Shown here: positions 22,644 to 58,827 of the stretch, in pieces
How positions within the stretch are numbered: the first letter of the stretch is position 1
Layout of the letters: each line of letters begins with the position of its first letter
Source: Rhodococcus sp. P1Y
Lineage (GTDB): Bacteria > Actinomycetota > Actinomycetes > Mycobacteriales > Mycobacteriaceae
Length of the DNA: 64,000 nucleotides
Reading direction: 5' to 3'
Assembly (NCBI RefSeq): GCF_003641205.1
Contig: NZ_CP032762.1
Coordinates: forward strand, 5,600,001 to 5,664,000
The notes under the pieces: generated by a model
Database searches by the model: none
Told to the model about the DNA's origin: nothing
Seen by the model: the letters and a program-made list of their open reading frames with translations, nothing else
Made by a program: the position numbers and the translations under genes

Positions 22644-22655
22644 TTCCTGACCCAC

Positions 22656-22749
22656 CTCACTCCCTGCGCCGGCATGATCCGGTTCAGGTATTGACGGTAA
22701 GGACGGGCGTGTCCACTCTCAGCCCCGCGTACCCCAGGACTCCCGTGTC
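22656..22749 (-). promoter_or_regulatory. TPP riboswitch (THI element)
   Basis: The minus strand carries the conserved TPP-aptamer core: GGGGCTGAGAG, then ACCTGAACCGGAT-ATGCCGGCG with one base difference, and the terminal CGCAGGGAG. It is the 5' leader of thiO-thiS-thiG. The ribosome site GAGGTGG (22652-22658) touches the 3' end of the aptamer, which suggests control of translation initiation. No strong intrinsic terminator is seen. The closing stem is short. Confidence 0.95.
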
Positions 22750-22782
22750 GTTACGAACTGATCACAGACTACCGTTTGCATC

Positions 22783-40647: not shown

Positions 40648-40747
40648 TCAACCATCCAGAGCGGTCTAGAGTCCTGGCTCGTCGACGCCGCAGCAACCCC
40701 CGACGCAAGTAGGTGCGGGTGCTTCCGCCAGGGTCGATGGAGAGGCA
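40648..40747 (+). promoter_or_regulatory. SAM-type riboswitch (SAM-I/IV-variant-like), copy 1
   Basis: The RNA would read CCATCCAGAGCGG, then GAGTCCTGGCTC, GACGCCGCAGCAACCCC, GGGTGCT-CCGCCAGGG and CGATGGAGAGG. This order and the GCAACCCC/GGUGC core fit the SAM-I/SAM-IV superfamily of actinobacteria. Stems: CCATC (40652-40656) with GATGG (40736-40740), GCGG with CCGC, and CCTGGC with GCCAGG. The ribosome site of the next gene, GGAGAGG, overlaps the closing stem, suggesting translational control. A second copy at 57501-57608 shows compensating changes. Confidence 0.85.
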
Positions 40748-49721: not shown

Positions 49722-51097
49722 GATGCTCGTACTCCTTCTCGCTCGACGTCGTACGCCTGACTCTCATGGGGGTGGCTCAGGCCCAGATGATCGCGCAGTG
49801 TGGTTCCGGTGTACTCCGTGCGGAAGCTGCCACGATCCTGCAGTTCGGGAATCACCTTGTCCACGAACTCGTCCAAGCCTGCAGGGGTGATGTGCGGGAC
49901 GAGAATGAACCCGTCGCTCGCGTCGTTCTGTACGTAGCTGTCGATTTCGTCGGCAACCTGAGCCGGCGTGCCGACGAACTGCTGCCGCGTCGTCACCTCG
50001 ATGATCAGCTCCCGAATACTCAGGTTGCCGGCCTCCGCACGTTCGCGCCACTCCCGCGCCACGGCAGCAGGATCTCCGTGCCGGACCCGCCCTCGTGTGA
50101 TGTTCACATCGTCGGTCGGGTCTTCCTTCGGAAGCGGCCCGTCCGGATCGTATTCGGAAAGATCACGCCCCCAGACCTGTTCGAGGAACGAAATCGCTGT
50201 CTGCGGACCGACTTGCTGAAGTCGAATGTGGTGGGCGCGTTCTTCGGCGTCCTCAGGTGTATCACCGAGGACGAAGGTCGCGGCGGGCAGCACCTTCAGA
50301 TCGCTGCGCTCGCGCCCGTACTTCGCCAATCTTCCTTTCACGTCGGCGTAGAACGCCTGACCGGCCTCCAGCGTCCCGTGGATCGTGAAGATGGCGTCTG
50401 CTTTCGCCGCCCCGAACTCTCGGCCCTCGTCCGAGTCACCTGCCTGAAGCAGCACCGGGTGTCCCTGTGGGCTGCGCGGAACGGTGAACGCCGCATCGAT
50501 GTCGAACTGCGGTCCGGTGTGTCGAACCTGCGCAATGGATTCCGCGCGTGCAAACACCCCGTTCTCACGATCGACGACGAGTGCGTCCGGCGCCCAGCTG
50601 TCCCACAGTTCTCGTGCGACATCGACGATTTCGCGAGCACGCACGTACCGATCGGCTCGGTCCAGATATCCGCCACGACGGAAGTTCTCACCGGTGAACG
50701 CATCCGAGGAGGTAACCATGTTCCAGGCCGCGCGCCCGGCGGACAGATGGTCGAGCGACGCGAACTGCCTGGCGAGCTCGAACGGCTCGTTGAACGTGGT
50801 GTTGATCGTGCCCGCCAGGCCGAGGTGCGTGGTCACCGCCGCAAGCGCGTTCAGAACCGTGAGAGTGTCCGGTCGACCGACGACGTCGAGATCGTGAATA
50901 CGACCCCGGTGCTCCCGGAGCCTGAGACCTTCGGCGAGAAAGAAGAAGTCGAACAGTCCACGTTCCGCGGTCTCCGCGAGGTGAACGAACGAATCGAAGT
51001 CGATCTGGCTCTTCGATTCCGGATCGGCCCACACCGTGGTGTTGTTGACGCCGGGAAAATGCGCGCCGAGGTGAATCTGCTTCTTGCGAGAAGTCAC
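49718..51097 (-). CDS. LLM flavin monooxygenase (NtaA/SnaA/DszA family)
   Basis: This 459-residue monooxygenase starts IHLGAHFPGVNNTTVWADPE and has LSAGRAAWNMVTSSDAFTGE, NFRRGGYLDRADRYVRAREI and GTTLRDHLGLSHP at the end. It is a close paralogue of the 60220-61611 product. It requires reduced FMN from elsewhere. The GTG start overlaps the upstream monooxygenase stop as GTGA. Expected role: oxidative cleavage of a sulfone or sulfonate. Confidence 0.9.
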   Translation of the reverse strand: MTSRKKQIHLGAHFPGVNNTTVWADPESKSQIDFDSFVHLAETAERGLFDFFFLAEGLRLREHRGRIHDLDVVGRPDTLTVLNALAAVTTHLGLAGTINTTFNEPFELARQFASLDHLSAGRAAWNMVTSSDAFTGENFRRGGYLDRADRYVRAREIVDVARELWDSWAPDALVVDRENGVFARAESIAQVRHTGPQFDIDAAFTVPRSPQGHPVLLQAGDSDEGREFGAAKADAIFTIHGTLEAGQAFYADVKGRLAKYGRERSDLKVLPAATFVLGDTPEDAEERAHHIRLQQVGPQTAISFLEQVWGRDLSEYDPDGPLPKEDPTDDVNITRGRVRHGDPAAVAREWRERAEAGNLSIRELIIEVTTRQQFVGTPAQVADEIDSYVQNDASDGFILVPHITPAGLDEFVDKVIPELQDRGSFRTEYTGTTLRDHLGLSHPHESQAYDVEREGVRAS

Positions 51098-52197
51098 TGC
51101 GATACTCCCTCTACTGCATAACGATTGACCGGACGAGCGAGGCCGAGACGAGTCCTCAACAGGCCTTCCCGTTCAGCTGGCTTCCACGGCAGATGCGGAA
51201 GGACGTACTGCGCGATGTTCTGCAGAGACTGCGACAACGCCAACGGTCGCAGCGTCACCCCGTCGACGACGCCGGACTCACGCAGTTCGGTCAGCAGCGA
51301 CACCAGTTCGGCACCGTCGCCTCGGAAGGTCACCGATTCGGGGACGTAGGGCGACCACGAGTTCAGCTGGTCCACATCCGCTGCTGCGGTATCGGACACC
51401 TGGACTTCGAGATCCAGAAGGACGTGAACGCTCGCCGGGTCCCGCCCTACGGCAACGACAGCGCGACGGACACGAGCCGCGAGAACTGCCGCGTCCTCGA
51501 CGGTTGACGCGGCGATCCGGACGACGTCTGCGCGATGTACAGCCACGCCCGTCGAGTGTGCATCGTCGGCACGCACCACCACGACCGGCTGTCCCTGCGG
51601 CGAACGCGGTGTGATCGAAGGGCCCTTGACCGAGAAGAACTCGCCTTCGAAGTCGATGTAGTGCAGCTTGTCTCGATCGATGAACCTACCGGTGGACGTG
51701 TCACGGATCTCCGCGTCATCCTCCCAGCTGTCCCACAGTCCGGTGACCACCTCGACGGCGTCGTCTGCTTCACGCCACAGCGAGTCATCGGTCTGTGCTG
51801 CTTTGCGGCCGAACAGATCTGCCTGGGTCGTGCCTCTGGACACCGCGACCTCCCATCCGGCCCGCCCCTTGGACGCGAAGTCGATGCTCGCAATCTGCTT
51901 GGACACGTGGAACGGTTCGGTGTGGGTGACCGTCACGGTAGGGACGAGACCGATGGACCGGGTCACCGCAGCGACCCGCGCAGCGACCGATGCGGCGTCG
52001 AGCCTGCCGCGTTCGGAACCGTCGCCGCTCTGCAGTGCGAAGGAATCGGGAACGAACGCGATGTCGATCCCGGCTCGGTCTGCCAGCTCGATGTGATCGG
52101 TCCAGTACTGCGCGGTGAACAGTTCTTCCGCGCGGGAGTCTGCGCGACGCCACGCCTGCGGGTGAATACCCGCACCCTGGAAGTCGACGGCAATCAA
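51094..52197 (-). CDS. LLM flavin monooxygenase
   Basis: This luciferase-like protein of about 367 residues has IAVDFQGAGIHPQAWRRADS, DFASKGRAGWEVAVSRGTTQ, GLWDSWEDDAEIRDTSTGRF and DRDKLHYIDFEGEFFSVKGP. It is paralogous to the 61613-62647 product. The likely start is a TTG at 52197 with GAGGAG upstream; a GTG at 52215 overlapping the ATPase stop is the alternative. It couples the peptide-type importer to the monooxygenase group. Confidence 0.85.
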   Translation of the reverse strand: MIAVDFQGAGIHPQAWRRADSRAEELFTAQYWTDHIELADRAGIDIAFVPDSFALQSGDGSERGRLDAASVAARVAAVTRSIGLVPTVTVTHTEPFHVSKQIASIDFASKGRAGWEVAVSRGTTQADLFGRKAAQTDDSLWREADDAVEVVTGLWDSWEDDAEIRDTSTGRFIDRDKLHYIDFEGEFFSVKGPSITPRSPQGQPVVVVRADDAHSTGVAVHRADVVRIAASTVEDAAVLAARVRRAVVAVGRDPASVHVLLDLEVQVSDTAAADVDQLNSWSPYVPESVTFRGDGAELVSLLTELRESGVVDGVTLRPLALSQSLQNIAQYVLPHLPWKPAEREGLLRTRLGLARPVNRYAVEGVSQ

Positions 52198-52207
52198 GAA
52201 CTTCTCC

Positions 52208-53803
52208 TCAGGCACGAACTGCCTCCTTGTCGACCGAGCCACCGGGAATCGCGACAAGCAATTCTCGTGTGTACTCGCGCTGTGGTGAATCGAATATCTG
52301 TGCAGTCGGCCCGTATTCGACGATCGAACCGGCCTGCATGACGGCAACGGTGTCGCTGATCTGGCGCACGACGGCAAGATCATGAGAGATGAACAGGTAG
52401 CTGAGATCGAGTCCGGTCTGCAGTTCGTCGAGAAGATCGAGGATCTGAGCCTGGACCGACACGTCGAGCGCGGACACCGGTTCGTCGAGAACCACCAATT
52501 CCGGTCGCAGCGCCAGCGCGCGAGCGATCGCCACCCGCTGACGTTGTCCGCCGGACAGTTCCGACGGCCGGCGGCGAAGGTAGTCGGCGGGGAGAGCAAC
52601 CTGGTCGAGCAGTTCGGTGACACGCTTGCCGCGTTCCGCCGAAGAACCGACCTTGAACGCGTCGAGGGGCTCTCGAATGATCTGCTCGACAGGTAGTTTC
52701 GGGTTGAGCGACGCGTACGGGTTCTGGTAAACGATCTGCACTCGGCGCCGAAGTGCCCGTAACTCCGAGCCCTTCAGGGACGCAACGGAAGTTCCGTCGA
52801 AGTCGACGGAACCGGAGGTCGGCGTCTCCAGTCCGATGGTGATGCGAGCGAGCGTCGACTTTCCCGAACCCGATTCGCCGACGAGCGAGACCGTCCGGCC
52901 GCGGTGGACCGTGAACGACGCCGATGTCACCGCGTCCAAGTTCACCCCACGCCCGATACGGAACGTCTTCGATACGTCGGTCACAGTCAGGATCGAGCGC
53001 GTGTCGGTTCGCGCGGGCCGCAGGGTCGTTCCCAAGCTCGGGGCCGCAGCCAGCAGCGACTTGGTGTACTCGTGCTTCGGGTTGGCCAGAATCTCTGCCG
53101 TCGGACCAGTTTCGACGATCCGGCCCTTGCTCATCACGACCAGTCGGTCAGCGCGATCGGCGGCGACACCCAGATCGTGCGTGATGAGCAACACCGCAGC
53201 ACCAGTTTTCGCGATGCGTTCGTCGAGGTGGTCGAGAATACGGCGCTGGACGGTCACGTCGAGCGCACTCGTCGGCTCGTCGGCGATGACGAGCTCCGGC
53301 CTGCAGGCGAGTGCGATGCCGATGAGTACGCGCTGACGCTGTCCACCGGACAGGTCCTGCGGGTACTGACGCGCACGTACTTCCGGATTGTCGATGCCGG
53401 CTTCGGTGAGGATGCGGATGGCCTCGACCTTGGCGGACCGCTTGGTGGCGAGCCCGTGTACGCGGAGCACCTCGGCGACCTGCTCACCGATCCTGACGAC
53501 GGGGTTCAGCGACGTCGTCGGATCCTGAGGCACGAGGCCGATGTGCGCTCCGCGCAGGCGATCGAGGGTCTTTTCGGACGCGTCGTCGATGCGGTCTCCA
53601 TCGAATCGAACCGTTCCGCCGGTGACGTGACCGGTGCCGGCGAGCAGCCCGATGATCGCGTGCGCAGTCGTCGACTTGCCCGAACCGGACTCGCCGACCA
53701 CGGCGACGACCTCGCCCTTGGCGACCGTCAACGACACGCCGGACACAGCGTTCGTGTCACCGTACGAGACCTGGAGATTCTCGACTTCGAGGACCGGACT
53801 CAT
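52208..53803 (-). CDS. Peptide-type ABC importer, double ATP-binding protein (DppD-DppF fusion)
   Basis: This 531-residue protein holds two complete ABC ATPases. The first has [26 protein letters not shown] and [12 protein letters not shown]; the second has [26 protein letters not shown] and [12 protein letters not shown]. Fused DppD-DppF proteins power importers of peptides, nickel, opines or glutathione. The ATG at 53803 overlaps the DppC gene by 4 bp; longer upstream reading in this frame is not coding. Confidence 0.93.
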
Positions 53804-54690
53804 GATTTTCCACCTTCGAGTGCATGTCCGACGCGGTGCGCGGACAGGACGACGGCGACGATGACCAGGCCGGGCAGAGTCGTCATCCACCACGCCGTTG
53901 CGAGGAAGTTCCTTCCCTCCGAGATCAACGAGCCCCACTCGGGGGTCGGTGGAACCGCTCCGAATCCGAGGAAGCTCAGCGCGGAGACAGCGAGCACGGC
54001 CATACCGAATTCGACTGCGGCGAGAGCGATGACGGGACCGTACGAGTTGCGCAGGATATGGCGACGGAACACGTTGTACCACCGAACACCCGACGCGTAT
54101 GCGGCCTCGACGTAGAGCGAGCGCCTCACGCGCAGAACTTCGGACCGCATCACGCGTGCGAAGTTGGCGATGAGCGAGACACCGACGGCGATGGCGACAT
54201 TGCGCGTTCCGAAGCCGAGTGCGGTGACCAAAGCTAGCGAAAGCAGAAGCGCCGGGATCGACAGCAGCACATCGACGATGCGCATCAGGACGGCATCCAC
54301 GATGCCGCCCACTGCGCCGGCGAGCAGCCCGATCAGTGACCCGACGATCAACGCGATGGCAACGGCGGCCAACGTTGCCGTCAGTGACAACCCGGCACCG
54401 TGCACGACGCGTGTGTACAGGTCGCGGCCGATGTTGTCGGTACCGAACCAGTGTGCAGCGCTCGGGCCCTGAAGTTTGTCCGCCGGGACTCCTTTGAGGG
54501 GGTCGCCGCTCGCGAACACCCCGGGGAACAGCGCTAAGCCCACCGCGAGACCGAGGACGACGATCGAGATGGCCAACCACAAGTTTTTCACGAGTGATCG
54601 CGCACGAGGCTTCCGGCGGCTCGGACCTGGCTTCGCCTCGACAGGTTCGGTCGCGTCGAACGTTTCCGCGCGAGTCAGGATGTCAGACAT
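53800..54690 (-). CDS. Peptide-type ABC importer permease (DppC-like)
   Basis: This 296-residue permease has the OppC/DppC pattern: a basic cytoplasmic N-terminus, [20 protein letters not shown], and the coupling loop around [20 protein letters not shown] with [14 protein letters not shown] after it. It overlaps the DppB gene by 8 bp. Confidence 0.92.
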
Positions 54691-55657
54691 GGGCTTTCTC
54701 CTTCACCGGTGCGCTCGACGCGTACTCGGAGACGATGCGCGGATCGATCAGCGGATAGAACAGATCGACCGCGAGATTGACCACGACGAACACCAACGAC
54801 GTCAGGACCACGATGCCCTGGACCACCGGGATGTCCTGAGCGAGCACCGACGTCTGGGTGAGCCTTCCGACACCTGCTCGAGAGAACACCGTCTCGACGA
54901 CGACCGAGCCCGCCAGCAAGTTGCCGACGAGTACGCCCGCGATGGTGAATGCCGGGATCGACGACAACCGCGCGACGTGCTTGGTCTGCACGCGAAGGCG
55001 TGAGACACCCTTCGCACGAGCCGATTCGACGAACGGTTGCTTCCACGTGGTGGTCATCGAGGTGGCGAGAACCTGCGCGATGACCGCGCCGGTCGGCAGC
55101 GCCAACGTGATGGCCGGCAGGACCAGCGAGGACACGCCCTGGTCACCGAATGCAGGGAAGATCCGCAGCTGGAACGAGAACACCTGCAGTAGAAGCAGTC
55201 CGACCCAGAAGGTCGGCACCGCCACACCCAGCGGTGGAATCGAGAACAGGACTGTACGAAGCCAGTTGATCTTCGTGTAGGTCGCGAAGAACGCGACGGT
55301 AGTGCCGAAGAGCAGGGCCAGCACGAGAGCCGTCGTCGCCAACGCCAGTGTGCTCGGCAGGGCGTCGAAGATTGCCGTCGTGACCTTCTGACCAGTGGCG
55401 ATGGAGAAACCGAAGTCACCGCGCACTGCGCCGCTGAGAGAGTTCCAGTACTGGACCCAGACGGGCTGATCGAGTCCGTAACGTGCCTGCAGTTCCGCGA
55501 TGGCGGCGGCGTCCACCGGCGTTCCCGAACCCGCCGCGTCGGCAGCGATGCTGACCGGGTCGGACGGAAGAAGGAACAGCACTATGAACGAGATGGTGAA
55601 CGCCGCCCACAAGACCGCTACGGCCTGCAGTACGCGCAGTGCGAGATAACGAATCAT
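54683..55657 (-). CDS. Peptide-type ABC importer permease (DppB-like)
   Basis: This 324-residue permease has MIRYLALRVLQAVAVLWAAF, LQARYGLDQPVWVQYWNSLS, and the EAA-type loop FVESARAKGVSRLRVQTKHV. It pairs with the DppC-like permease. It begins 2 bp after the binding-protein stop. Confidence 0.92.
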   Translation of the reverse strand: MIRYLALRVLQAVAVLWAAFTISFIVLFLLPSDPVSIAADAAGSGTPVDAAAIAELQARYGLDQPVWVQYWNSLSGAVRGDFGFSIATGQKVTTAIFDALPSTLALATTALVLALLFGTTVAFFATYTKINWLRTVLFSIPPLGVAVPTFWVGLLLLQVFSFQLRIFPAFGDQGVSSLVLPAITLALPTGAVIAQVLATSMTTTWKQPFVESARAKGVSRLRVQTKHVARLSSIPAFTIAGVLVGNLLAGSVVVETVFSRAGVGRLTQTSVLAQDIPVVQGIVVLTSLVFVVVNLAVDLFYPLIDPRIVSEYASSAPVKEKAHV

Positions 55658-55659
55658 GA

Positions 55660-57276
55660 TTACTGTCCGCTCAGCCAGGTGTCGAAGAACTGCAGTCGCG
55701 CCGAGGCCTCGAACTTCAGATCCTGGACATTCGCGCCTGCTCCGATTGCTTGGGAGAGCTCGATCGTCGGGATCCAGAGGCCGTTGTCGAGGACCTGCTG
55801 CTGCGCGGCGGCGATGATCGCATTGCGTTCGGCAGTGTCCGTCGTCGCGAGTTCGTTCGTGAGCGATGCGTCGAGATCAGGAATCGGTCCGCGCGCGTTC
55901 AGGTTTCGACCGTCGATCGCGAAGCTGGTCCGCAGTATGTCGCCGTCGGCCCGTGTGCTGTTGTAATAGTTCGCGTCGTAATCCTTGGTGTTCTGACGCG
56001 CCGTCGATTCCGGCACCGAGACCAGCTCGAGCTGAAGGTCGACGCCGACGTCGCGCAATTGCTGCTGCGTCAGTTCGAGAATCGCCTGGTTGCCAGCGAA
56101 AACAGCGGCGAACATGACCTTGAACGAGAGCTTCTGACCGTCCTTCTCACGGATGCCGTCCGGGCCGGGAACCCAACCCGCTGCGTCCAGAATCGACTTG
56201 GCCTTCTCCGGGTCGTACGTGACGTCGGACAGTTCCGTGTAGCCCGGCGTCTTGCTTGCAAGAGTGCTGGTCGCCGTCCTGAAATCGGGACCGAGGACGG
56301 TGTCGACGAGTTCTTGGCGATTGATCGCAGGGACCAGGGCCTTACGCACCTCGGGGTCCTGGAGTACGCCGCGCGTGACATTCGGCTGAATCCCGAACGG
56401 AACACCTGGGTTCGAGGTGGTGAGGATCTGTCCGCCGGTCGCCTCGATCTGTGGAGCATCCTGGGGAAGTGCATCCGAAATGGCGTCGAGCTGGCCCGAG
56501 GACAGGCTTCCTGTCCTGACCCCTGATTCGGGCACGACGGTGAATTCGATGGTGTCCAGGTATGCCTCACCATCGTGGGCGAACACATCGGATCCCCAGT
56601 CGTATCCGGCCCGCTTGGCGAGGGTGACCGAGCGGTCCTGCTGGTAGTCCGCATATGTGAACGGACCGCTGCCGATGTTGTTTCCGCTGCAGCGGTCTTC
56701 GGCCGGCTTGGCGACCGTCTCAGGCGACTGGATGCCGAGCTGCGTCGTCGAACTTGCCTGCAGGAACTGTGCGTTCGGGCCGGTGAAGTCGATGCGGGCC
56801 GTCAGTGGATCGACGACGGTCGTGCCCTCGTACCCGAAGAGGTAGCTGCCCCCGAGTGGTGCTTTCGCGGTGGTCAGCACATTCACGATCGAGTCGAAGT
56901 TCGCCTTGACCGCTTCCGCGTCGACCGGCGTCCCGTCGCTGAACGTCACGCCATCCTTGAGCTTGAACGTGAAGGACGATGCGTCCGGAGCGACCTCCCA
57001 GCTGTCGGCGAGCCACGGGGTGATTTCGCCTGTGTCCGGATCTTGGTCGGTGAGCGAATCCACCACCTGGCGAGCTACGTAGATGGTCTGATTGGTGGCC
57101 GATTGTGCAGGATCCGAGCAGGACGGGGCACCGGACAGCCCGTATCGCAGGGTGCCGCCCGCAGTCGGCTCCCCCGCATCTGCACTGCTCGACGTGGAAC
57201 CACCGCCGCACGCGGTGAGAACGACGCTCAGGGCAGCGAGTGTGCTGACGCCTGCGAAAACGGAACGAGAGGACAC
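55660..57276 (-). CDS. Peptide-type ABC importer substrate-binding lipoprotein
   Basis: This 538-residue SBP family 5 protein has a lipoprotein signal with lipobox VLTAC followed by a Gly/Ser linker. The binding fold shows DSWEVAPDASSFTFKLKDGV, TFSDGTPVDAEAVKANFDSI and late VPESTARQNTKDYDANYYNS. The GTG at 57276 is chosen because GGAG lies 7 bases upstream and the signal peptide starts there. It is the first large gene after the riboswitch and leader peptide, so its cargo is probably an organosulfur compound such as a thiol peptide; this is inference. Confidence 0.9.
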   Translation of the reverse strand: MSSRSVFAGVSTLAALSVVLTACGGGSTSSSADAGEPTAGGTLRYGLSGAPSCSDPAQSATNQTIYVARQVVDSLTDQDPDTGEITPWLADSWEVAPDASSFTFKLKDGVTFSDGTPVDAEAVKANFDSIVNVLTTAKAPLGGSYLFGYEGTTVVDPLTARIDFTGPNAQFLQASSTTQLGIQSPETVAKPAEDRCSGNNIGSGPFTYADYQQDRSVTLAKRAGYDWGSDVFAHDGEAYLDTIEFTVVPESGVRTGSLSSGQLDAISDALPQDAPQIEATGGQILTTSNPGVPFGIQPNVTRGVLQDPEVRKALVPAINRQELVDTVLGPDFRTATSTLASKTPGYTELSDVTYDPEKAKSILDAAGWVPGPDGIREKDGQKLSFKVMFAAVFAGNQAILELTQQQLRDVGVDLQLELVSVPESTARQNTKDYDANYYNSTRADGDILRTSFAIDGRNLNARGPIPDLDASLTNELATTDTAERNAIIAAAQQQVLDNGLWIPTIELSQAIGAGANVQDLKFEASARLQFFDTWLSGQ

Positions 57277-57380
57277 CGAGGCACTCCGGATCTGTGAAGG
57301 ACGCCGAATAGGGCACACCGTTACGGCACACCTGATTCGAGCGGTACGGGAAGAAAGAAAGAAATCTGGCTGTAGAAGCG

Positions 57381-57500
57381 TCAGCCGCGACAGATCGAGC
57401 CGGTCAATCGGCACAGATCGAGATGAATGCGGCCCCAGGCCGTCACGAAACCTTCACCCACGGCGTGCACAGACGCTGGGCGGCGAGGGGTGGTGCTCAT
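57381..57500 (-). CDS. Cysteine-containing leader peptide (putative attenuator)
   Basis: A 39-codon frame starts at the ATG at 57500, seven bases after a GGAGG site, and ends GRIHLDLCRLTGSICRG. The ending matches the HIDLxRLxSxLCR pattern of short putative leader peptides found before sulfur-assimilation operons in actinobacteria. The cysteines are residues 30 and 37. Known mycobacterial cases are cysteine-responsive attenuators. The 104 bp to the binding-protein gene contain GGTGTGCC repeats but no obvious terminator hairpin. Confidence 0.8.
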   Translation of the reverse strand: MSTTPRRPASVHAVGEGFVTAWGRIHLDLCRLTGSICRG

Positions 57501-57608
57501 CGTTCCTCCATCGGTCCCGGCGGTAGCACCCTCACCCGCGTTTCACTAGCCCCGCGGGGGGTTGCTGCGACGTCGTAGAGCCAGGTCTCTCGGTCGCTCT
57601 GGATGGTG
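57501..57608 (-). promoter_or_regulatory. SAM-type riboswitch (SAM-I/IV-variant-like), copy 2
   Basis: On the minus strand this reads CCATCCAGAGCGACC, GAGACCTGGCTC, CGACGTCGCAGCAACCCC, GGGTGCTACCGCCGGGA and CGATGGAGG. It aligns with copy 1. Paired stems differ in a compensating way: GCGG/CCGC there, GCGAC/GTCGC here; CCTGGC/GCCAGG there, CCTGGC/GCCGGG here. The closing stem CCATC (57602-57606 region) with GATGG (57508-57512) overlaps the GGAGG ribosome site of the leader peptide, 8 bases away. Confidence 0.87.
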
Positions 57609-57663
57609 TTGCGTGGTCGAGTGTACGAGCACGAGGGCCCGCGGCGCCAATTGGGGTTGTTTC

Positions 57664-58827
57664 CTACGTAGTAACAGGGGAATGACCGGTGCGTACGAGC
57701 GGCAACACGCCACGGCCGAAGTGTTCGGCCTCTTCCCGGTGGGGGTAGCCGGAGAAAATGAACTCGTCGATGCCGGCAGCCACGTATTCGCGGATGCGGT
57801 CGGCGACCTCGTCGTGACTTCCGACGAGGGCGGTTCCTGCACCCCCGCGTACGAGCCCGAATCCGGCCCACAAATTCGGCGAGACAACGAGCTTGTCCCG
57901 GTCTCCCCCGTGCAGATCCAGCATGCGGCGCTGCCCTTCGGAACCGATGCTGCGCAACGCCTTCTGCCTGCGAGCGATGAGGTCGTCGTCGAGATCGGAG
58001 ATGAGATCGTCTGCCACTGCCCAGGCCTCGTCGGACGTGTCCCGTGTGATGACGTGCAACCGAATTCCGCCCCTGATCGTTCGGCCTTTCCTTGCTGCGG
58101 CCTTCTCGACCACCGAAATCTTCTCGGCCACTTGTGCGGGCGGCTCGCCCCAGGTCAGGAACACGTCGGCTTCAGCTGCAGCGACCTCGATCGCGGCAGG
58201 CGAGGATCCGCCGAGGTAGACGTCGGGCAATGGAACCGGTGGGTGGCCACCGAAGCCGCCGCCGTTCGGGCGGTCGACCGTGTAGAAGTCGCTGTCGACC
58301 GCAACCGGCTTGCCGTCACCGACAGCCCGTGCGATCTCCAGAAACTCCTGTGCCCGACGGTAACGCGCGTCCTTACCGAGGGTGTCGCCGTAGGCGCGCT
58401 GTTCGATGTCGTCGCCCCCGACGACAACATTGAGTAGCGCACGCCCACCGGACAACCGCTGGAACGTGCTGACCATCTGCGCCGACAGCACGGGCGCGAC
58501 GGCGCCAGGCCGGAACGCGACGAGGAACTTCAGGTTCTTCGTCGCTGCAATCAGCGCCGAGGTGACGAGCCATGCGTCCTCACAGTGCCCGCCGGTCGGC
58601 GTCAGAGCAGCGTGGAATCCGAGCCGGTCGACGGTCTGGGCAATCTGCGTCAAGTACTCGAGCGACGCCTCGCGGTGGCCTGTGTCCGCCACGGCTTCGT
58701 CGGTAGCGCCGATCCCGACGCCGTGTGAGGCCCCGCCGAGGCGTTCGTCGTCACCTCCGGTGGGAAGGAACCACGAGAATTTCGGTCCAGTCATGGCAGG
58801 AGCGGAGCCTGGGGAGTGAGAAGTCAT
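57664..58827 (-). CDS. ssuD: FMNH2-dependent alkanesulfonate monooxygenase
   Basis: This 387-residue enzyme cleaves alkanesulfonates to aldehyde and sulfite. It has the SsuD start KFSWFLPTGGDDERLGG, RLGFHAALTPTGGHCEDAWL, FLVAFRPGAVAPVLSAQMVS and LNVVVGGDDIEQRAYGD, and ends FSGYPHREEAEHFGRGVLP. A second start codon (MTGPKF) lies 11 codons in. It overlaps the MFS gene by 4 bp and ends 55 bp before the second riboswitch. Confidence 0.93.
   Translation of the reverse strand: MTSHSPGSAPAMTGPKFSWFLPTGGDDERLGGASHGVGIGATDEAVADTGHREASLEYLTQIAQTVDRLGFHAALTPTGGHCEDAWLVTSALIAATKNLKFLVAFRPGAVAPVLSAQMVSTFQRLSGGRALLNVVVGGDDIEQRAYGDTLGKDARYRRAQEFLEIARAVGDGKPVAVDSDFYTVDRPNGGGFGGHPPVPLPDVYLGGSSPAAIEVAAAEADVFLTWGEPPAQVAEKISVVEKAAARKGRTIRGGIRLHVITRDTSDEAWAVADDLISDLDDDLIARRQKALRSIGSEGQRRMLDLHGGDRDKLVVSPNLWAGFGLVRGGAGTALVGSHDEVADRIREYVAAGIDEFIFSGYPHREEAEHFGRGVLPLVRTGHSPVTT

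Follow-up and report, generated by a model that had tools for sequence, protein, structure and literature searches.

A SAM-I riboswitch ahead of a cysteine-codon leader peptide in Rhodococcus and related genera: a candidate two-input control of importer genes

On the minus strand of a 64,000-nucleotide stretch of Rhodococcus sp. P1Y DNA (hereafter the window), a SAM-I riboswitch aptamer runs into the ribosome site of a short leader ORF with two conserved cysteine codons. An importer operon follows. This stack, of riboswitch on leader, recurs across several genera. From the arrangement and conservation of its parts, we lean towards reading it as a two-input OFF switch, contained in one 5' leader, that would leave the operon fully on only when SAM and cysteine are both low.

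Our starting point was a sequence-only reading of the locus, according to which a SAM-type riboswitch ends in the ribosome site of a 39-codon ORF. Both parts of that description were borne out. The aptamer, at positions 57505..57609(-), was matched by cmscan to the SAM-I family (RF00162) with 52.4 bits, the gathering score being 44.4. The match covers the full model, from 1 to 108, with an E-value of 1.1e-10. Note that cmscan keeps the best match per clan. Hence, SAM-I is the best of its clan at 57609-57505(-). An alignment of 28 aptamers from the genus (that in the window and 27 others) has invariant core columns common to all. We infer, from membership of the RF00162 family, that the window aptamer binds SAM. 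The P1 helix, placed by sequence and alignment, pairs CCAUC (57602..57606) with GAUGG (57508..57512). The Shine-Dalgarno sequence of the leader ORF, GGAGG, is at 57505..57509, and the ATG begins 4 nt after it. The 3' strand of P1 and the Shine-Dalgarno sequence have two G's in common; of the five Shine-Dalgarno bases, only these two are inside P1. Because of this sharing, a closed P1 helix and an initiating ribosome should compete.

The P1 end was present in all of 94 oriented SAM matches except L051, a weak match that we left out of the P1 table. All five pairs are kept in every distinct strand pair but one, which has one mismatch, and the changes across relatives are from C-G to U-A and U-G. 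Some family matches have U-A as the last pair (UCAUC/GAUGA), and none of these has a motif leader (defined below). Two such loci, L168 and L171 of genus g10, have an 8-codon Cys-free ORF after the helix (VSSVQESA and VSVVQESA). The stop codon of this ORF overlaps the start of the frame VKFLLITLITHT; this is another riboswitch-on-uORF layout. Separately, three loci in genera g4 and g13 (L151, L152, and L165) have no clear GGAGG after P1 (GATGGGTG).

Upstream of the aptamer, by 16 nt, is a -10-like box of the form TANNNT (TACACT, 57620..57625(-)), recognised by consensus match only. A box of this form occurs 8-24 nt upstream of the aptamer at 76 of 89 distinct loci, compared with 18% in mononucleotide shuffles. 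The 89 loci are the 51 genus and 43 family matches with duplicates removed. Given this enrichment, the RNA probably starts close to the aptamer, with TANNNT as the candidate promoter box. The leader had been estimated at about 330 nt; this holds if transcription starts at 57625-57620, a position that is itself a consensus match.

The leader ORF, at 57381..57500(-), encodes MSTTPRRPASVHAVGEGFVTAWGRIHLDLCRLTGSICRG. Its end had been said to fit the leader peptides of sulfur operons and, consistent with this, the translation matches NCBIfam NF042934, annotated as "putative leader peptide" (cis_reg_atten), with 34.4 bits (E-value 1.1e-8, curated cut-off 27). The motif consensus across relatives is RxH[VI]DLCRx5C. 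We compared 53 distinct 17-codon cores, drawn from 76 loci, some of which are the same place in two collections. There were 55 distinct cores, and two of 16 codons were left out. The set also omits L001, which has Y for H, and seven 9-codon ORFs; L138, where the leader stop is lost, was counted. Note that the cores are related by descent, so that the following counts are not independent events. Arginine at position 1 was found in 53 of 53, histidine in 52, aspartate in 51, and arginine at position 8 in 53. Cysteine was found in 51 of 53 at position 7 and likewise at position 14. Over core positions 1-8 the third codon positions vary (1.7 and 1.96 bits for the two arginines). In the same set, and for pairs with 1-14 differences, pN/pS was 0.31 in frame, compared with 1.44 and 2.32 in the shifted frames. 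A chance ORF was rejected on the basis of this ratio and the conserved motif. Judged by these comparisons, the leader ORF evolves as a protein, and the conservation of frame and cysteine codons expected by the sequence-only reading is found in relatives. By contrast with its core, the N-terminus is variable, and length ranges from 24 to 51 codons, with 72 after loss of the stop and 9 at seven genus loci. The 72-codon frame, in L074 (Rhodococcus sp. RD6.2) and L138 (the same sequence), passes the likely importer start, the usual leader stop being missing. Both loci were left out of the spacer-composition, stop-hairpin, last-Cys, and all-Cys counts.

In the window leader there are two separate cysteine codons, and no cysteine run. 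The first conserved codon is UGC (57411..57413(-), core position 7) and the second is UGU (57390..57392(-), core position 14). Wherever position 14 is cysteine, the codon is UGU (51 of 51 distinct cores), and L001, outside the core set, has UGU there too. At position 7, the codon is UGC in 45 and UGU in 6 of 51 cores. Across 38 genes of the window there are 37 UGU and 118 UGC codons (UGU = 24%). The final cysteine codon of the whole leader is not always UGU (49 UGU and 5 UGC in 54 distinct leaders). Hence, UGU appears to be fixed by position, rather than by the end of the leader. The invariant codon may be a slowly decoded sensor or, on a second reading, a signal at the RNA level. A few leaders have one conserved cysteine fewer; L151 and L152 are without the second, and L005 and L139 without the first. 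Note also that the two arginines, histidine, and aspartate are conserved as strongly as the cysteines, which is beyond the need of a pure codon counter.

A peptide-type importer and monooxygenases were said to follow the leader, and domain matches agree. The first structural gene (55660..57276(-), assigned a GTG start) encodes a substrate-binding lipoprotein of the SBP_bac_5 type (PF00496). Against TIGR04028 it scores 340.2 bits, below the cut-off of 468.5. Two ABC permeases with BPD_transp_1 domains are at 54683..55657(-) and 53800..54690(-), and a double ABC ATPase is at 52208..53800(-), where the start is a presumed one and the open frame runs to 54580. The luciferase-like monooxygenase at 51094..52623(-) is NtaA/DmoA-like; its start is uncertain, the listed ORF overlaps the ATPase, and the score against TIGR03860 (235.9 bits) is below the cut-off of 279.7. 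Upstream, on the same strand, are three more luciferase-like genes and an MFS gene. Among the neighbours are an NtaA/DmoA monooxygenase, with 359.7 bits against 279.7, and an SsuD-like gene, whose 424.8 bits fall short of the 518.2 required. These fit sulfur scavenging and, judged by the company that it keeps, the importer likely has a sulfur role.

The window genome has four SAM matches. They fit within 28 kb, and two score above the cut-off. One, at 40649-40743(+), is a SAM-I match of 39.8 bits, below the cut-off, with a 496-codon ORF immediately after its P1 end, GATGGAGA. L043 and L049 are alike, with a similar protein start. Just outside the window, at genome position 5668498-5668595, is L001, a second stacked leader (MNCRTWRGLYVDLSRVGTRTCTGHFLL) before a permease gene. 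It has serine at the first conserved cysteine and UGU at the second. The window also contains a TPP riboswitch (RF00059) at 22644-22756(-), with 56.6 bits against a cut-off of 54.3.

Across the genus, 51 SAM matches were found in 22 of 37 genomes searched. In 37 of the 51, a cysteine-containing ORF of 9-51 codons begins 1-10 nt after the ribosome site. Thirty of these leaders have the motif [HYC][VIL][DE][LFW]xR. The other seven are 9-codon ORFs (e.g. MNICTCTHA) with no motif and one or two cysteine codons. Eleven of the 51 matches lead straight into a frame of 170 codons or more. Three are without the exact P1 end: L004 and L049, which read directly into a gene, and the weak match L051. Direct and stacked switches occur within one gene cluster, which shows the leader to be an optional module. 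Elsewhere in the family, 23 of 51 SAM matches are followed by a motif leader. Here, 41 of 151 sampled genomes had SAM matches; the 151 were drawn from a larger group, and stricter filters lose weak matches. The stacks are in seven further genera (g4, g10, g13, g17, g21, g23, and g27), which makes eight including that of the window.

The stack was also found by way of the importer. Among the best 80 of 226 contigs with importer homologues, 30 had the searched P1 end upstream of the importer match. A leader was present in 24, counting L074 with its lost stop, and absent in six, all from Nocardia. In four of those six (L086, L092, L097, and L101) the frame that follows the switch is continuous with the importer gene. 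The 24 importer-linked stacks are from the fascians clade, R. opacus/jostii/koreensis/wratislaviensis, R. zopfii, R. triatomae, R. erythropolis/qingshengii, and others; L066 and L068 are examples from the importer operons of R. jostii and R. opacus. At order level, 397 genomes were searched, 314 with a match, and we inspected the 30 best-scoring loci, which makes these a biased sample. None of the 30 had a motif leader, and in 28 an open frame of 350 codons or more began within 40 nt, the position of the aptamer end being approximate. The stack as an order-wide feature is thus unsupported in this sample.

Four kinds of first gene follow stacked leaders: SBP_bac_5, ABC permease, NMT1/SsuA-like, and OsmC-like. 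NMT1-like binding proteins (the Pfam assignment; SsuA is our label) are at L141 and L142, and OsmC-like proteins at L151, L153, and L165. Loci of the permease class have a further ORF, mostly of 9 or 11 codons, whose end shares 4 nt (RTGA) with the start of the permease gene, a textbook layout for coupling (28 of 32; the exceptions are L034, L037, L148, and L154). In L007, for example, this ORF is at +85 to +121 after the aptamer. The overlap suggests termination-reinitiation, as a third layer of control in this class. L144 has its SAM switch right before such a coupling ORF, with no cysteine leader.

Leaders of the NF042934 family also occur in the genus without a SAM switch, the aptamer motif having been checked in the upstream stretch. 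We selected 20, from genus leader matches that do not coincide with SAM matches; 19 were recognised by motif. Position 14 is cysteine in 16 and the codon is UGU in 16 of 16, with positions counted by hand. Five or six cysteine codons are present in some of the SAM-free leaders. Eight downstream genes were scanned. Nitrite/sulfite reductase domains were found after L215 and L223, DUF4395 after L214, a sodium:dicarboxylate-type symporter after L216, and carbonic anhydrase after L227; the genes after L218, L222, and L233 gave no Pfam match. For cysteine-rich leaders ahead of nitrite/sulfite-reductase-type genes, a cysteine signal is the simplest reading. Taken together with the conserved cysteine codons of the stacked leaders, this makes it likely that cysteine supply sets downstream expression.

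The importer gene starts 104 nt past the leader stop, and 228 nt past the end of the aptamer, with a Shine-Dalgarno sequence of its own (GGAG, 57284..57287(-)). Hence, the riboswitch most likely acts through translation of the leader. The distance from leader stop to gene start is 48-160 nt in SBP-class loci with an intact leader stop. A scan of the window locus from 57200 to 57760, on both strands, gave no terminator-like site, and an intrinsic terminator was rejected on this basis. Rho, by comparison, enters at RNA that is C-rich and G-poor. The 104-nt spacer (57277..57380(-)) is a candidate region for such entry, with 19 C and 11 G in its first 60 nt. In 28 non-redundant sequences, the 90 nt downstream of the leader stop show a C fraction of 0.402 and a G fraction of 0.238, compared with 0.344 and 0.325 in 132 control upstream segments. 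The mean of C minus G was 0.163 and 0.019, respectively (Mann-Whitney p 7e-12); the post-leader set was purged of duplicates and of sequences sharing 14-mers, and note that the sequences, and likewise the controls, share common descent. With 18 window segments as a smaller control, the fractions were 0.321 for C and 0.304 for G. C exceeds G in 56 of 57 distinct 60-nt post-leader segments, the exception being L138, the leader without its stop. The same is true of the 90 nt after all 20 SAM-free leaders, two of which were parsed in another frame. A spacer of this composition is compatible with Rho.

We propose the following sequence of events. When SAM is plentiful, P1 of the aptamer would close, occupy part of the GGAGG, and so block initiation at the leader ORF, provided that the aptamer binds its ligand as its family does. 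This gating of leader translation by SAM follows closely from the anatomy shown above. When SAM is low, the leader would be translated and its cysteine codons, above all the UGU near the end, would report charged tRNA-Cys. If cysteine is short, the ribosome would stall near the end of the leader; if cysteine is plentiful, the ribosome would finish and leave. In the last and least certain step, a leader that is untranslated, or has been vacated, would give Rho access to the C-rich, G-poor RNA that follows the stop codon. Transcription would then end ahead of the importer gene, unless hindered by a stalled ribosome.

Leader translation might instead decide whether a hairpin hides the importer ribosome site. 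Translational attenuation is ascribed to the cysteine genes of M. smegmatis in the accessible portion of PMC13236596. To set against this are structure predictions, made for 36 of 76 leader loci. In these, the importer Shine-Dalgarno sequence has a nearly constant mean openness, at 0.32 without a ribosome, 0.31 or 0.29 with one stalled at the first or last cysteine codon, and 0.31 with one at the stop. For the start codon, the same four states gave 0.19, 0.21, 0.25, and 0.25. A ribosome-dependent fold hiding the importer ribosome site thus finds little support in these 36 sequences, there being no shift in the mean. We also rejected a hairpin conserved at the leader stop or beyond it, since in 31 non-redundant sequences the mean z-scores ranged from -0.09 to -0.60 and were inconsistent; in single lineages, a small hairpin folds over the leader stop codon. 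Three of five R. opacus-type loci (L066, L067, and L069) behave differently. Here, predicted openness is about 0.1 and goes up to 0.4-0.5 once a ribosome occupies the leader, so that another link between leader and gene is possible at these loci. For the stack in general, we consider such attenuation very unlikely, and Rho is favoured as the link between leader and operon. Alternatively, the leader might relay the SAM signal only, with its translation shielding the RNA from Rho or keeping transcription coupled, and cysteine not being sensed. The overlap of P1 with the ribosome site and the C-rich spacer speak for this, and no amino-acid signal is mentioned for the Mbox and B12 uORF switches of M. 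tuberculosis in the available text of those papers. What such a relay leaves unexplained are the two cysteine positions, each kept in 51 of 53 cores, the invariance of UGU, and the cysteine-richer leaders of the same family before nitrite/sulfite-reductase-type genes. We regard it as unlikely.

A different role for the peptide is arrest. TnaC, which stalls the ribosome with tryptophan, is the model. The nascent chain RxH[VI]DLCRx5C would stall the ribosome on a sulfur metabolite, with the SAM switch gating its synthesis. Non-cysteine residues of the motif are kept, in 53, 52, 51, and 53 of 53 cores, while third codon positions vary, which argues that the peptide is selected and not its cysteine codons alone. 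The same motif also stands ahead of other operons. However, the seven 9-codon leaders without the motif keep one or two cysteine codons, and the invariance of UGU at position 14 is a feature at the level of the codon. We hold arrest to be rather improbable. No less tentative is a version in which the SAM switch gates a sulfur-sensing arrest peptide with an obligatory UGU, and either the nascent chain or slow UGU decoding would govern Rho. Finally, the ORF could encode a small functional protein, as the first gene of a SAM-regulated operon. Its conservation at the protein level is consistent with this, and the Mbox uORF of M. tuberculosis has been proposed as such a protein, according to the available text. 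Even so, the N-terminus and length vary (24-51, 72, or 9 codons), and the importer gene would escape SAM control unless polarity were invoked. We give this idea very little credence. Hence, gating by SAM followed by a reading of cysteine supply is the interpretation that we carry forward.

Cysteine leader peptides of actinobacterial cys operons have reportedly been described by Canestrari and co-workers in 2020. In Salmonella, the mgtA leader, with mgtL, responds to Mg2+ and has proline codons. It resembles the window in that a leader peptide and a metabolite-sensing RNA share one 5' region, but the layout differs. The known SAM-I layout in actinobacteria, as given in the available part of PMC1262725, has the base helix over the start site, and the window aptamer is alike. 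SAM-I switches directly before structural genes are found in the same genus too (L003 and L043). The difference is that, in the window, the ribosome site belongs to the leader ORF, while the structural gene has its own beyond the spacer. Leader peptides of actinobacterial cys operons, in the same source, share with the window a short ORF, cysteine codons near its end, a place before sulfur genes, and the want of a conserved terminator. However, those leaders have cysteine runs, and the part of the paper at hand mentions no riboswitch, whereas the Shine-Dalgarno sequence of the window leader is inside the aptamer. Mycobacterial polycysteine leaderless attenuators, as defined by a title cited in PMC13236596, are leaderless and have a cysteine run. 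The window ORF is unlike them, with an SD-led start after an aptamer and two separate cysteine codons.

The sequence-only reading held that no well-described example of such stacking exists. That claim should be narrowed, since riboswitches acting on a uORF are already published for M. tuberculosis. At ppe2, a uORF controlled by a B12 riboswitch decides expression of the next gene (PMC11260477); termination-reinitiation and another ligand set it apart from the window, and in the text available 'cysteine' and 'attenuat' occur 0 times. At pe20, a translational Mbox acts on a conserved uORF, rv1805A, with Rho-dependent termination (PMC12810186). It differs in that the uORF is the proposed protein referred to above and the ligand is Mg2+, not SAM; 'cysteine' and 'leader peptide' occur 0 times in the portion of text available. 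In Xanthomonas, a SAM-I riboswitch resembles the window in combining translational control with a second, tRNA-based input, but uncharged initiator tRNA binds the RNA platform directly, and no leader peptide is mentioned in the accessible part (PMC7270179). The SAM-II switch of Sinorhizobium metA also hides a Shine-Dalgarno sequence, with the real start further downstream (PMC9373788). It differs in that the start, 74 nt downstream, uses the riboswitch Shine-Dalgarno sequence, and the available text mentions no leader peptide. Since this switch acts over 74 nt, action at a distance that is independent of a leader is conceivable. Among the open-access titles and opening lines of abstracts that were listed, none paired a SAM riboswitch with either a uORF or a leader peptide. 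In the available parts of a Streptomyces reannotation and of a riboswitch review, riboswitch and leader peptide are mentioned in separate places. We conclude that two known modules are joined in a new order, with B12/ppe2 and Mbox/rv1805A as the nearest published cases.

If the proposal is true, the stack is a naturally occurring RNA device in which one short leader reads two linked metabolites in series, SAM and the cysteine from which it is made, and in which the riboswitch acts on the attenuator and not on the gene. The leader-peptide family NF042934, annotated but so far without a characterised role, would gain a function as well. The invariant UGU codon yields a sharp prediction on how the leader senses. 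Because the modules occur alone and together in the genus, and importer genes occur with and without the leader, the logic could be tested by simple swaps. Were the gated peptide of the arrest type, the stack would be an RNA logic gate for two metabolites, assembled time and again from modules that can be separated. For rhodococci and their relatives, the stack, placed before likely sulfur-uptake genes, looks like a two-signal sulfur gauge.
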